Origin: Actinomycetota bacterium | Lineage (GTDB): Bacteria; Actinomycetota; Actinomycetes; S36-B12 | Direction of reading: 5' to 3' | DNA: 36,978 nucleotides | Assembly: GCA_947449035.1 (NCBI GenBank) | Contig: CANFQC010000025.1 | Coordinates: 1 to 36,978, forward strand | Part shown: positions 11,236 to 14,541 of the stretch, one piece after another | How the letters are laid out: every line of letters starts with the position of its first letter | How positions within the stretch are numbered: position 1 is the stretch's first letter | Made by a program: the position numbers and the translations under genes | The notes under the pieces: model-generated | What the model was told of the DNA's origin: nothing | The model's input: only the letters and a program-made list of their open reading frames with translations | Database searches by the model: none

Positions 11236-12492
11236 GTGGCACTCTTCGCTGATCTGACCCCGCTTCGGGTCAGCGCGCCGTATCGGCGATTGTGGGCATC
11301 GCTGGGCATTAGCAATATCGGTCAGCAGATGACCTCGGTTGCTGTTGGTTTCCAGGTCTGGGATCTCACCCACTCAAGTTTCATGGTGGGTCTTGTCGGA
11401 CTGTTCCAACTTGTGCCCCTGATTGGGTTCGGTCTTTATGGCGGCACTTTGTCGGATGCCTTCGATCGACGCATTGTCGGAGTGGTGACTGCAGTCGGCA
11501 TGTGGACCTGCTCCGCGCTGTTCCTCGCGCAGTCGCTGCTCGGCATCGATTCCGTTGGCGTTCTTTACCTGATCATTGCGATGGCGTCGATGTTCTTCGC
11601 TGTCGGAAATCCCGCGAGGCAGGCGATCATCCCGCGCATCGTGCCGCGTGAATTGCTTCCTTCCGCGAATGCCTTGAGCATGCTTACCTGGAACTTCGGA
11701 TTCACCATCGGTCCACTCCTCGGCGGCGCACTCGTCGCCATCACCGGCACCGTCACTTCGGCGTACGTCATCGATGTCGTTGCCTACCTCGTTCTCATCT
11801 GGGCGATGTGGATGCTGCCAAGCCTGCCGCCGATCGTCATCGATGGTGATGAGCGACCACGTGCGGGCTGGTCTGCCGTGCGCGAAGGGTTCGTATTCCT
11901 GAAGGGCAAGAAGAACCTTCAGATGACCTTCTACGAAGACATCATCGCGATGGTCTTCGGCATGCCACGTGCGCTCTTTCCGGCGATTGCCGCACAGTGG
12001 TACGGCGGATCCCTCCGGGAAGTGGCAACGGTTCTCGGCATTCTCTCGGCAGGACCTGCTGTCGGCGCACTGTTATCTGGCGTGCTCTCCGGTTGGCTGC
12101 ACTCCATCCGTTTCCAGGGCCGAGCAATCGTGCTCGCGATCGTGGTGTGGGGCACAGCCATAGCGGCATTCGGCATGGTGCGCTGGCTGCCACTTGCCTT
12201 CCTGCTTCTCGCGATCGCCGGTGCCGCTGACAACGTCTCGGCTGTCTTCCGTTCCACAATCTTGCAGACCGCGACCCCTGATGAGTACCGCGGCCGACTC
12301 CAGGGCGTATTCACGGTGGTGGTCGCCGGCGGCCCAAGACTTGGCGATGTCGAGGCGGGCACAGTCGCAGCACTTGCGGGCGAGACAGTCTCGGTGATCT
12401 CAGGTGGAGTTGCGTGCGTGCTACTCGCCGTGGGTCTCGCACGTGCAGTGCCGTCGTTCGTGAAGTACGACGCGCACAATCCTGTGGCGTAG
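11236..12492 (+). CDS. MFS exporter, EntS-like (MFS_3) family
   Basis: 418 residues, starting at GTG 11236. About 12 transmembrane helices are visible, with the N-terminal segment SAPYRRLWASLGISNIGQQMTSVAVGFQVWDLT and the loop GTLSDAFDRRIV typical of this branch of drug and siderophore exporters. FRSTILQTATPDEYRGRLQGVFTVVVAGGPRLGD is also characteristic of the family. The substrate is unknown. It is a single-gene unit between pdxH and the toxin-antitoxin pair, with its own probable leaderless promoter. Confidence 0.85.
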   Translation: MALFADLTPLRVSAPYRRLWASLGISNIGQQMTSVAVGFQVWDLTHSSFMVGLVGLFQLVPLIGFGLYGGTLSDAFDRRIVGVVTAVGMWTCSALFLAQSLLGIDSVGVLYLIIAMASMFFAVGNPARQAIIPRIVPRELLPSANALSMLTWNFGFTIGPLLGGALVAITGTVTSAYVIDVVAYLVLIWAMWMLPSLPPIVIDGDERPRAGWSAVREGFVFLKGKKNLQMTFYEDIIAMVFGMPRALFPAIAAQWYGGSLREVATVLGILSAGPAVGALLSGVLSGWLHSIRFQGRAIVLAIVVWGTAIAAFGMVRWLPLAFLLLAIAGAADNVSAVFRSTILQTATPDEYRGRLQGVFTVVVAGGPRLGDVEAGTVAALAGETVSVISGGVACVLLAVGLARAVPSFVKYDAHNPVA

Positions 12493-12519
12493 GTGCTGGC
12501 AGCTTTGCAGAATTCCTAC

Positions 12520-12548
12520 TTGACCAGAATCTGGCCAGAATCTACCCT
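12520..12548 (+). promoter_or_regulatory. Toxin-antitoxin promoter with a built-in direct repeat
   Basis: TTGACC at 12520-12525 and TACCCT at 12543-12548 are separated by exactly 17 bp, and the antitoxin ATG begins 6 nt after the -10. The spacer holds CCAGAATCT twice (12524-12532 and 12535-12543), an 11-bp period that puts both copies on one face of the helix. This is a good candidate for the autoregulatory site of the antitoxin. Confidence 0.7.
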
Positions 12549-12554
12549 GAACTC

Positions 12555-12809
12555 ATGAGCGCACCCACGGACGATGCCAGCATTGGGGTCTTCGATCTCA
12601 AGTCTCAACTCTCGTCCGTCCTTGAGCACGTCCTGGCCGGCCAGATTTACACGGTGACCCGTCACGGTCACCCGATCGCGCGCATCACTCCAATCGCTGT
12701 CGCTTCGGCGAATGAGCGACGCGCCGCTGCCGCGCGCATGATTGAGGCTCGGCGAGGCAGAAAACTTGGAATCTCGATGAAAGACGCGATCACGCAGGGT
12801 CGCGCGTGA
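12555..12809 (+). CDS. Type II antitoxin, Phd/YefM-like
   Basis: 84 residues. The start is ATG 12555, set by the leaderless promoter just upstream. The N-terminal half (IGVFDLKSQLSSVLEHVLAGQIYTVTRHGHPIARITPI) is the Phd/YefM DNA-binding fold. The C-terminal part (ANERRAAAARMIEARRGRKLGISMKDAI) is the basic, flexible region that would wrap the toxin. Its last codons overlap the toxin start by 4 bp (GTGA), which couples their translation with antitoxin first, the usual order. Confidence 0.87.
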   Translation: MSAPTDDASIGVFDLKSQLSSVLEHVLAGQIYTVTRHGHPIARITPIAVASANERRAAAARMIEARRGRKLGISMKDAITQGRA

Positions 12810-13213
12810 CAGCGGGAATCGTGCTCGACGCCTCCACGACTCTGGCCTGGGCATTCGACGATGAGGCAGGCAAATACTCCGAAGGTGTACTGCAGTTCGT
12901 CGTCGAAAATCACGCTGTGGTACCTGCACTATGGAGCTACGAAATTGCGAACGGTGTCCTTGTCGGTCTCCGTCGCGAGCGGCTTAGTATCGAGGCGGCC
13001 GTAGATTTCACAAACGATCTCGTTGCCATGGATATTCGAGTCGATTCGGCCCCATGCGAGCCCATGAGTCTGCTCGCGGAGGCGTTGGACTCGGGACTCA
13101 CGGCGTATGACGCGTCGTACCTACTTCTTGCTCGGTCGACCGGACTGCCTTTAGCGACTCGTGACAAGGCATTAGTGAGAGCCGCACGTAAATCGGGCAT
13201 CGACGTCTTCTGA
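12806..13213 (+). CDS. vapC: VapC-type PIN-domain ribonuclease toxin
   Basis: 135 residues, GTG start. PIN domains cut RNA with a set of acidic residues that hold Mg2+ or Mn2+. Here these are D8 (IVLDAS), E46 (WSYEIANG), D102 (AYDASYLLLA) and D120 (LATRDKAL), all in the right order and spacing. The RNA target is not predictable. Together with the overlapping Phd-like gene it forms a complete type II toxin-antitoxin module. VapC is more often paired with VapB; a Phd-type partner is a common actinobacterial variant. Confidence 0.9.
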   Translation: MTAGIVLDASTTLAWAFDDEAGKYSEGVLQFVVENHAVVPALWSYEIANGVLVGLRRERLSIEAAVDFTNDLVAMDIRVDSAPCEPMSLLAEALDSGLTAYDASYLLLARSTGLPLATRDKALVRAARKSGIDVF

Positions 13214-13232: not shown

Positions 13233-13511
13233 CTAGCGGTTGCGCAGGTAGAGCGTGACCAGGGCATCGAGGGTCATGCCCTGCTCCTCGGCCTTCTTGC
13301 GTAGCTCCTTGCGAAGCGACTTCGGGATTTCGACCGAGAGCTCGACGAGCTTGTCCTTGGCCGGTGGGCGCATAGTGTCCGAGGCCGACGAGCCGGCCCG
13401 AGTGGAGAGATCCTCATGCGACTGCTCTGCAGGAGCGGGAAGGGTCGGATGAATGTCAGCGTCGGCCGCCTTACGCAAAGCGGGGCGCGGGGTGGGATCA
13501 AAGGTGCTCAC
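13233..13511 (-). CDS. Small ribbon-helix-helix-like partner of ParA
   Basis: 92 residues from GTG 13511, overlapping the parA stop (GTGA). Residues 1-50 are Pro/Ala-rich and probably disordered. The C-terminal 42 residues (LVELSVEIPKSLRKELRKKAEEQG...) read as a beta strand followed by two helices, like CopG/ribbon-helix-helix DNA-binding proteins. Position and fold suggest a centromere-binding or adaptor partner of the ParA ATPase rather than a classical ParB, whose domains are absent. The pair could position some cellular cargo. The fold call is by eye. Confidence 0.65.
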   Translation of the reverse strand: MSTFDPTPRPALRKAADADIHPTLPAPAEQSHEDLSTRAGSSASDTMRPPAKDKLVELSVEIPKSLRKELRKKAEEQGMTLDALVTLYLRNR

Positions 13512-14293
13512 GGGTACTCCCTGACTGCTCGGCCGAACGGATAGAGCAAATTTTCGAGAAGCTGATCGAAGATAGCGCTCAGCTCGCGGCCCGCGGGTGA
13601 ATCCCAAGTATGAATAGGAATGCCAGCGCCCTCGGACTGCGGGATTGCATTGCGTTCAGGCACCATCACGGGGCTGACAAGCGGGCCGAATGCATCCTGG
13701 AGTTCCTGGATGCGCATGCGGTGTTCGGCGACAGTGGTGCGCGCACGATTCATGAGAATCGTCGATGTGCGAATAGCGGGGTTAGTAGAACTCCGGATCA
13801 CGTCAACAGCCTCAACTGCCTGCTGCGCACCGTGCAGTGCGAAGTAGCCGGGCTCGGTCACGACGAGCGCGGCATCGGAGGCGCTGAGGGCGTTGCGAGT
13901 GAGCTCGCCGAGTGAGGGTGGGCAATCGATGAGCACGATGTCGTAGCTTCGCGGCACGTTCGCGAGCGCCGATTTCATTCGAAGCTCGCTGTAAGCGCCC
14001 TCTCGAGCGTTGCGGTGCTCAAGTGAGCGCTCGGACGCGATGACGTGAACGTTCGCACCCCACGGAGTGGGCAGAATCGCGTCGACAGCGATGCCTGGGC
14101 GTGCGTCGGCGAGCACGTCGTTGGTGGTGAAGGGCGGATTGTCGACGCCAAGACCCATGGTGGCGTTGGCCTGGGGGTCGAGATCAATGACGAGTACCTT
14201 GAGGCCGCGATTCCAGGCCGCACTGGCGATCCCGAGGGTCACAGTCGTCTTCCCGACGCCACCCTTCATCGAGACAACGGAGATCGTGGGCAC
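13508..14293 (-). CDS. ParA/Soj-family ATPase
   Basis: 261 residues, GTG 14293. The deviant Walker A box KGGVGKTT starts at residue 10, the second conserved segment is VIDLDPQANATMGLG and Walker B is IVLIDCPPSLG. These ATPases dimerise on nonspecific DNA to position chromosomes, plasmids or protein clusters. No ParB gene, rep gene or parS-like site was seen, and the flanks are chromosomal, so this is an orphan ParA with a small downstream partner. TAGCAT at -12 to -7 suggests a leaderless transcript. Confidence 0.9.
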   Translation of the reverse strand: MPTISVVSMKGGVGKTTVTLGIASAAWNRGLKVLVIDLDPQANATMGLGVDNPPFTTNDVLADARPGIAVDAILPTPWGANVHVIASERSLEHRNAREGAYSELRMKSALANVPRSYDIVLIDCPPSLGELTRNALSASDAALVVTEPGYFALHGAQQAVEAVDVIRSSTNPAIRTSTILMNRARTTVAEHRMRIQELQDAFGPLVSPVMVPERNAIPQSEGAGIPIHTWDSPAGRELSAIFDQLLENLLYPFGRAVREYP

Positions 14294-14318: not shown

Positions 14319-14492
14319 TCAGCCGAAGAGTCGGCTGAAAAATCCGCCCTGCTTCTTGGCGGCGGCCTTCTGCTCAGCGGTGCACGTGCACCACTGACCC
14401 TTGGGAACGCTGCTCTTGACCTGGGCAATGTGTTGACCGCACCCGGCCCAGGTTGTCTTGCTGCAGGCCTTGCAGGTAACGGGGCGGCACAT
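14319..14492 (-). CDS. 57-residue cysteine-rich protein
   Basis: The ORF starts at ATG 14492 behind AGAGGAA and ends with TGA at 14319. Six cysteines are present at residues 2, 7, 10, 18, 35 and 37 (MCRPVTCKAC, AGCGQH, WCTC), plus a His at 21, an arrangement suited to binding zinc or another metal. The tail is Lys/Ala-rich and ends GGFFSRLFG. It resembles small conserved bacterial proteins of unknown function with the N-terminus CRPVTC and WAGCGQH. A CsoR-like palindrome overlaps its promoter, so expression may respond to copper or to a related signal. Function not known. Confidence 0.8.
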   Translation of the reverse strand: MCRPVTCKACSKTTWAGCGQHIAQVKSSVPKGQWCTCTAEQKAAAKKQGGFFSRLFG

Positions 14493-14503
14493 GGTGTTCC
14501 TCT

Positions 14504-14520
14504 CGATCAGTGAATGATCG
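14504..14520. promoter_or_regulatory. Inverted repeat in the leader of the Cys-rich gene
   Basis: CGATCA and TGATCG are perfect 6-bp arms around GTGAA. The repeat lies between the probable -10 and the Shine-Dalgarno of the 57-residue gene, so it could be a small hairpin in the mRNA or a second protein site. Confidence 0.45.
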
Positions 14521-14521
14521 A

Positions 14522-14541
14522 ACTATACCCCAGGGGGTATA
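14522..14541 (-). promoter_or_regulatory. CsoR-like operator overlapping a -10 element
   Basis: TATACCCC and GGGGTATA (14524-14541) form a perfect 8-bp inverted repeat around AG. A G/C tract flanked by A/T, as here, is the pattern recognised by CsoR/RcnR-family repressors, which sense copper, nickel, persulfide or formaldehyde. On the minus strand TATAGT (14527-14522) inside it is a good -10 for the Cys-rich gene, so binding would block transcription. No csoR-like gene is in the window. Confidence 0.6.

Follow-up and report, generated by a model that had tools for sequence, protein, structure and literature searches.

What controls the gene for a 57-residue protein with six cysteines, and what might so small a protein do? 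The gene lies on the minus strand at 14319–14492 of the window, the 36,978-nucleotide stretch of DNA analysed here, and its product carries its cysteines and a histidine at C2, C7, C10, C18, H21, C35, and C37. The first-pass annotation proposed that this gene is driven from a TATAGT −10 overlapped by a perfect CsoR-like palindrome, that a second palindrome lies in its leader, and that it answers to metal or sulfur. The open reading frame is indeed present, homologues were found at 80 loci, and 73 members could be aligned. Upstream, a perfect inverted repeat of 8 + 8 bp with a 2-bp spacer, TATACCCC AG GGGGTATA, occupies 14524–14541 (read on the minus strand as TATACCCCCTGGGGTATAGT), and the predicted −10, TATAGT at 14522–14527 (minus strand), overlaps the right arm of this TATACCCC-n2-GGGGTATA operator. 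The minus strand from 14592 to 14490 reads ...CATATACCCCCTGGGGTATAGTTCGATCATTCACTGATCGAGAGGAACACC-ATG, with a putative purine-rich ribosome-binding site, GAGAGGAAC, at 14496–14504 (minus strand) before the ATG at 14490–14492.

A sister species (locus L010), whose protein is 96% identical, retains the 22-bp operator/−10 block CATATACCCCCTGGGGTATAGT unchanged amid diverged adjoining bases, and keeps the ribosome-binding block as well. Of 64 family genes with the operator, 24 have TATAnT at the corresponding place, against about four expected. Short palindromes are common, and a chance inverted repeat might be suspected, but the probability of this is negligible: the full 16-position palindrome has a single exact match in the 2,358,139-bp genome, with none for the reversed control pattern, and the operator is conserved before homologues across many genera as well as in the sister species. 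On sequence comparison, this conservation already refutes chance as the origin of the repeat, and the proposed palindrome over the −10 thus stands on its sequence, its uniqueness in the genome, and its conservation in the sister species. The second repeat, TCGATCA-n5-TGATCGA at 14503–14521, is real but probably has no function; the sister species carries a mutated 5′ arm (TGCACTCATTCGCTGATCGA), and with one arm so broken the repeat was dropped as a functional element.

The 14524–14541 repeat matches ATACCn6GGTAT, the operator shown by gel shift for ScCsoR, a CsoR-family repressor of Streptomyces coelicolor that is released by sulfane sulfur (PMC7533328), and like other sites of this class it stands near a promoter. 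The 2.36-Mb genome contains six exact matches to ATACCn6GGTAT, against one for the reversed control, and five of the six have a plausible target gene. One precedes the 57-residue gene and another a 42-residue paralogue, MCSPVKCEQCSKVTWSGCGEHVDQVKSMFTDEEWCTCARWGL (ORF at L007:4378–4506); these two are all the family members found in the genome. A third lies before the start of a CoADR-rhodanese (CoA-disulfide-reductase/rhodanese) gene, 76% identical, which is cut off by the end of contig C76 (L006:1–191), so that the full length of the enzyme cannot be read in this genome. The fourth (ATACCTAGGGGGGTAT) stands 15 bp before the ATG of the sole CsoR-family gene, on contig C9, and the fifth (L008:3974–3991, contig C56) overlaps the annotated ATG of a class I methyltransferase gene. 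By sequence, this methyltransferase is a possible member of the regulon, an assignment strengthened by another actinobacterium (L113), in which a homologue (45% over 261 residues) immediately follows the small gene. A link to the methyltransferase of a Microbacterium plasmid was rejected, there being no homology beyond the fold. The sixth site, C3:9319, lacks the GC run, lies at the end of an unrelated helicase-like gene, and was taken as chance.

Absence of the palindrome upstream of homologues had been set beforehand as a ground for abandoning CsoR-family control. The palindrome occurs there, with at most two mismatches and at −48 to −148, in 35 of 80 homologues, which a single-protein scan, by similarity to the 57-residue query, drew from many actinobacterial genera. 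The scores are cleanly split: no homologue has three mismatches, and the other 45 lie at background, with four to six. Control segments from the same loci reached two mismatches or fewer in 21 of 640 cases, some of them probably because the segment takes in a neighbouring gene's operator. Many homologues without their own operator belong to an operon headed by a CoADR-rhodanese or persulfide-dioxygenase-like gene, which has the operator, 1.5–2.4 kb upstream. A gene for CoADR-rhodanese, CsoR, rhodanese, TauE, SQR, or a persulfide-dioxygenase-like protein lies within 4 kb in 64 of 81 loci, and 74 of 81 have either a sulfur- or CsoR-type neighbour within that distance or a direct operator. Independent annotation agrees: on Rhodococcus jostii plasmid pRHL3, the family appears as a ‘hypothetical protein’ among an MBL-fold hydrolase, thioredoxin, rhodanese, DUF302, and a ‘metal-sensitive transcriptional regulator’, and on a Microbacterium plasmid the family gene directly follows a ‘metal-sensitive transcriptional regulator’. 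A further member, 51% identical, is encoded at MT835623.1:19139–19297, an unannotated 24-kb human faecal record labelled Bacteriophage sp., which may be a mislabelled bacterial contig.

Among 30 related genomes, which are not independent of one another, 26 contain the small family. The operator (at most one mismatch, starting 31–112 bp before the gene) precedes 29 of the 41 family genes testable there, as it does both members in the host genome. With targets assigned by distance and BLAST, 48 of the 52 exact sites in the relatives precede a small-family, CsoR, or sulfur-related gene; the small family is the commonest target (19 sites), and most of the remaining targets are persulfide enzymes and CsoR. 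These counts are in part circular: the operator sites or loci themselves helped to define the YeeE-like, TDT, thioredoxin, AhpD, and DUF302 labels, and some SQR, dioxygenase, and rhodanese reference sequences were drawn from the sites and loci counted, with the small-family, CsoR, and CoADR counts least exposed.

Across 296 genomes of the phylum, the shorter exact palindrome ATACCCCnnGGGGTAT occurs in 39 and its reversed control in none, and 16 genomes have both the exact operator and the family (Fisher p 5e-7, ignoring relatedness). One genome from another family of the phylum (G079, 2.9 Mb) has 22 exact ATACCCCnnGGGGTAT sites, far above any other genome searched. The small family is absent from the sampled genomes of family f3 (6–10 Mb), which we read as Streptomyces. 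Since Streptomyces has the ScCsoR circuit, this absence suggests that the small protein is not essential to such regulons.

Which signal does the operator convey? The predicted repressor, encoded at C9:47397–47618, is the only protein in the genome to match PF02583 (CsoR/RcnR, DUF156; E 1.6e-23). Position y of the sensory site in this family is a histidine in copper and nickel sensors but not in CstR. The host protein has a Cys pair (Cys35 and Cys64) at positions x and z and no histidine at y, the arrangement of the CstR type; its sensory site reads Cys-Gly-Cys, with glycine in place of the copper-binding histidine, and the Cys-His-Cys Cu(I) site is found only in paralogues from other genomes. 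Compared with solved structures, its best match is 7mq1, which lacks histidine at y, whereas Thermus CsoR and InrS possess it; 7mq1 was deposited as csoR, and we take it to be the pneumococcal CstR. Among CsoR proteins linked to the family or the operator, each of the 54 that were scored, the host protein included, reads Cys-(Gly/Ala/Ser)-Cys, and two further sequences outside the motif scoring likewise have no histidine at y. The CsoR of one genome, G424, reads Cys-Gly-His. Cys-His-Cys paralogues also exist in the 30 relatives, usually beside copA; none of their promoters carries the operator, while about half of the promoters of non-His CsoR genes do. The small family is present in 25 of 25 relatives with the regulator type that lacks histidine at y and in one of the five without it (Fisher p 2e-4, ignoring relatedness, and with one of the 25, G413, assigned from its Pfam match, its fingerprint unread), a co-occurrence that favours a persulfide signal.

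These results bear directly on copper, under which a CsoR-family protein would sense Cu(I) and the small protein would serve as a metallothionein-like copper buffer, as MymT does under RicR. What chiefly keeps copper under consideration is a Cu+ P-type ATPase gene (copA) directly after the host CsoR gene (the pair at L009:3111–5640, contig C9), and hence also behind its autoregulatory site; the presence of this gene, in place of sulfur genes, behind the sensor also counts against a persulfide regulon. Six cysteines in 57 residues would suit a copper buffer, and the operator motif alone cannot tell copper CsoR/RicR sites from persulfide CstR sites, the ScCsoR site resembling those of Geobacillus CsoR and Mycobacterium tuberculosis RicR (PMC7533328). 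Copper nevertheless appears quite unlikely: neither the host CsoR nor any other of the 54 scored linked regulators has the histidine ligand, the Cys-His-Cys CsoR genes of the relatives lack the operator, and none of the 52 exact sites in those relatives was assigned directly to copA. Replacement of the last cysteine by histidine in nearly half of the family members would, moreover, be unusual for a Cu(I) thiolate cluster. Copper was therefore downgraded as the main reading on account of the missing histidine and the operator targets. The CsoR–copA pairing recurs in both genus relatives searched and in some of the taxonomic family; a persulfide-type sensor may control copper export in this genome, and a CsoR gene beside copA does not necessarily encode a copper sensor.

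FrmR and RcnR belong to the same family of regulators (PMC5016687), and another DUF156-type signal such as formaldehyde, nickel, or cobalt might be considered on that account. Such control is very improbable given that the operator targets include no gene for formaldehyde or nickel and that the regulators carry the Cys-x-Cys pair.

The 57-residue gene is thus probably a target in a persulfide-responsive (CstR-like) regulon, with a mini-protein of zinc-binding type as a core member. The operator, its conservation, the genes that share it, and the type of regulator are all computational observations, and the operator is common to persulfide enzymes (CoADR-rhodanese in the host genome and many in the relatives). 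Control of the small gene by a CsoR-family repressor is well supported by the operator at homologues, in relatives, before both host members, and at the head of operons. The broader proposal of metal or sulfur control is narrowed by these results: persulfide, which we infer to be the inducer, is favoured because the co-regulated genes encode persulfide enzymes and the regulators lack the copper-binding histidine, and copper recedes.

Under such persulfide control, the CstR-type repressor from contig C9 would sit on TATACCCC-n2-GGGGTATA and cover the −10; given this position of the operator, repression would result from the blocking of RNA polymerase. A build-up of persulfide would lead to modification of the repressor's Cys pair and to its departure from the DNA, as shown for ScCsoR. 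The 57-residue protein, its 42-residue paralogue, the CoADR-rhodanese (of the CoASSH-reductase type), and the repressor's own operon would then be co-expressed, with the methyltransferase probably made together with them. The small protein would act beside the CoASSH reductase.

Several known systems resemble this one in part. The ScCsoR circuit of S. coelicolor (persulfide dioxygenase, rhodanese, TauE; PMC7533328) likewise relies on a CsoR-family sensor that uses two cysteines, an exactly matching ATACCn6GGTAT operator, and co-regulated persulfide enzymes; however, it comprises four genes and lacks a small Cys/His protein, whereas in the present genome the enzyme found is a CoADR-rhodanese, two small-family genes are added, and the sensor gene precedes copA. 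CstR controls a CoASSH reductase in Enterococcus faecalis (PMC9405070), and the cst-like operons of E. faecalis and Staphylococcus aureus (PMC9405070, PMC5480029) are similar in placing a CstR-type repressor over CoADR-rhodanese or rhodaneses, but these are Firmicutes, and the parts of the two sources consulted mention no member of the small Cys/His family. TTHA1953 of Thermus thermophilus, also CsoR-like, regulates sulfur genes and has a reactive Cys pair, although its operator lacks the GC run and it controls Sox genes (PMC10318464). The RicR/MymT pair of M. tuberculosis provides a case of a very small Cys-rich protein controlled by a CsoR-family repressor through a palindrome with a GC run; there, however, the signal is copper, and the regulators linked here lack the copper-binding histidine. 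MymT itself is not known to be related to the small protein.

The persulfide regulons of CsoR and CstR are known for enzymes and exporters. In this actinobacterial group, the commonest target is a Cys/His protein of 37–63 residues for which there is no family model. The regulon offers an operator, defined targets, and cultivable relatives (Corynebacterium, Actinomyces, Arthrobacter, Rhodococcus, and others), and a role for the small protein in sulfur stress, apparently unstudied so far, is directly testable.

Members of the family follow the pattern CxxC ... W-x-G-C-G-x-H ... C-x-C, or C-x2-3-H at the last position, and the alignment of 73 shows C2, C7, C10, W15, G17, C18, G19, H21, and C35 to be invariant. 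A larger set of 150 was collected by a pattern requiring C2, C7, C10, C18, and H or Q at 21. All 150 have H21 and a later cysteine, and in all of them that cysteine is followed by Cys at +2 or His at +2 to +4, the final cysteine being replaced by histidine in nearly half. Metal ligands, above all those of zinc, typically show such an exchange of Cys for His at one place, which catalytic thiols typically do not; its occurrence throughout the 150 hence points to metal binding. A small zinc protein would be expected to conserve four Cys/His ligands; the family has six that are invariant and one that is Cys or His, several of them required by the collection pattern. A GFFxRLFG-like (FFxRLFG-like) C-terminal tail is present in 89 of 125 long members, and members of 37–48 residues lack it.

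The AlphaFold model (pLDDT 80.6, pTM 0.51) comprises a β-hairpin, a CxxC turn, and a helix after CGxH, and a fold search with it against the PDB returned no solved match. No curated Pfam or NCBIfam model scores above its cut-off for the 57-residue protein, Pfam models match at most 9 of the 73 aligned members (best E 0.0014), and none of the candidates from Pfam, NCBIfam, or PDB profiles was credible. The open-access literature searched does not mention the family. The Cys/His pattern makes a small cytosolic protein structured by zinc the most likely reading; the case for zinc comes from this pattern, given that no solved fold matches the model.

Both zinc binding and the role of the protein are what we infer from these features. 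The first choice of role is that of a thiol/persulfide acceptor or a partner of the co-expressed rhodanese-type enzymes. We would tentatively go further and suggest that the family takes sulfane sulfur from the CoASSH reductase or a rhodanese, and is a zinc-structured, hitherto undescribed core component of the actinobacterial persulfide response and the one most frequently regulated. Second comes a function as a sink or chaperone for zinc that persulfide-damaged proteins release, the small protein itself taking no direct part in persulfide chemistry. This function is consistent with the invariant C2, C7, C10, C18, H21, and C35, a seventh position occupied by Cys or His in every case, and zinc-finger-like elements in the model. 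This seems somewhat unlikely, however, as no known fold was matched, and the invariant Trp and Gly, together with the tail of the long members, suggest partner binding beyond buffering.

A ParA/MinD-like ATPase gene (13508–14293, minus strand) begins 25 nt downstream of the small gene on the same strand and may possibly be reached by read-through, but it is not part of the regulon; it was rejected as a functional partner, not being adjacent to the small gene in the sister species. There, the small gene and the ParA-like gene are separated by a gene for a SLAC1-family anion transporter (L010:5172–6315, compared with 14319–13508 of the window); this transporter gene is missing at the host locus, and a whole-genome search found none elsewhere. 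Further along the window, at 12414–13213, two overlapping plus-strand open reading frames resemble a PHD/VapB antitoxin and PIN-domain VapC toxin pair.
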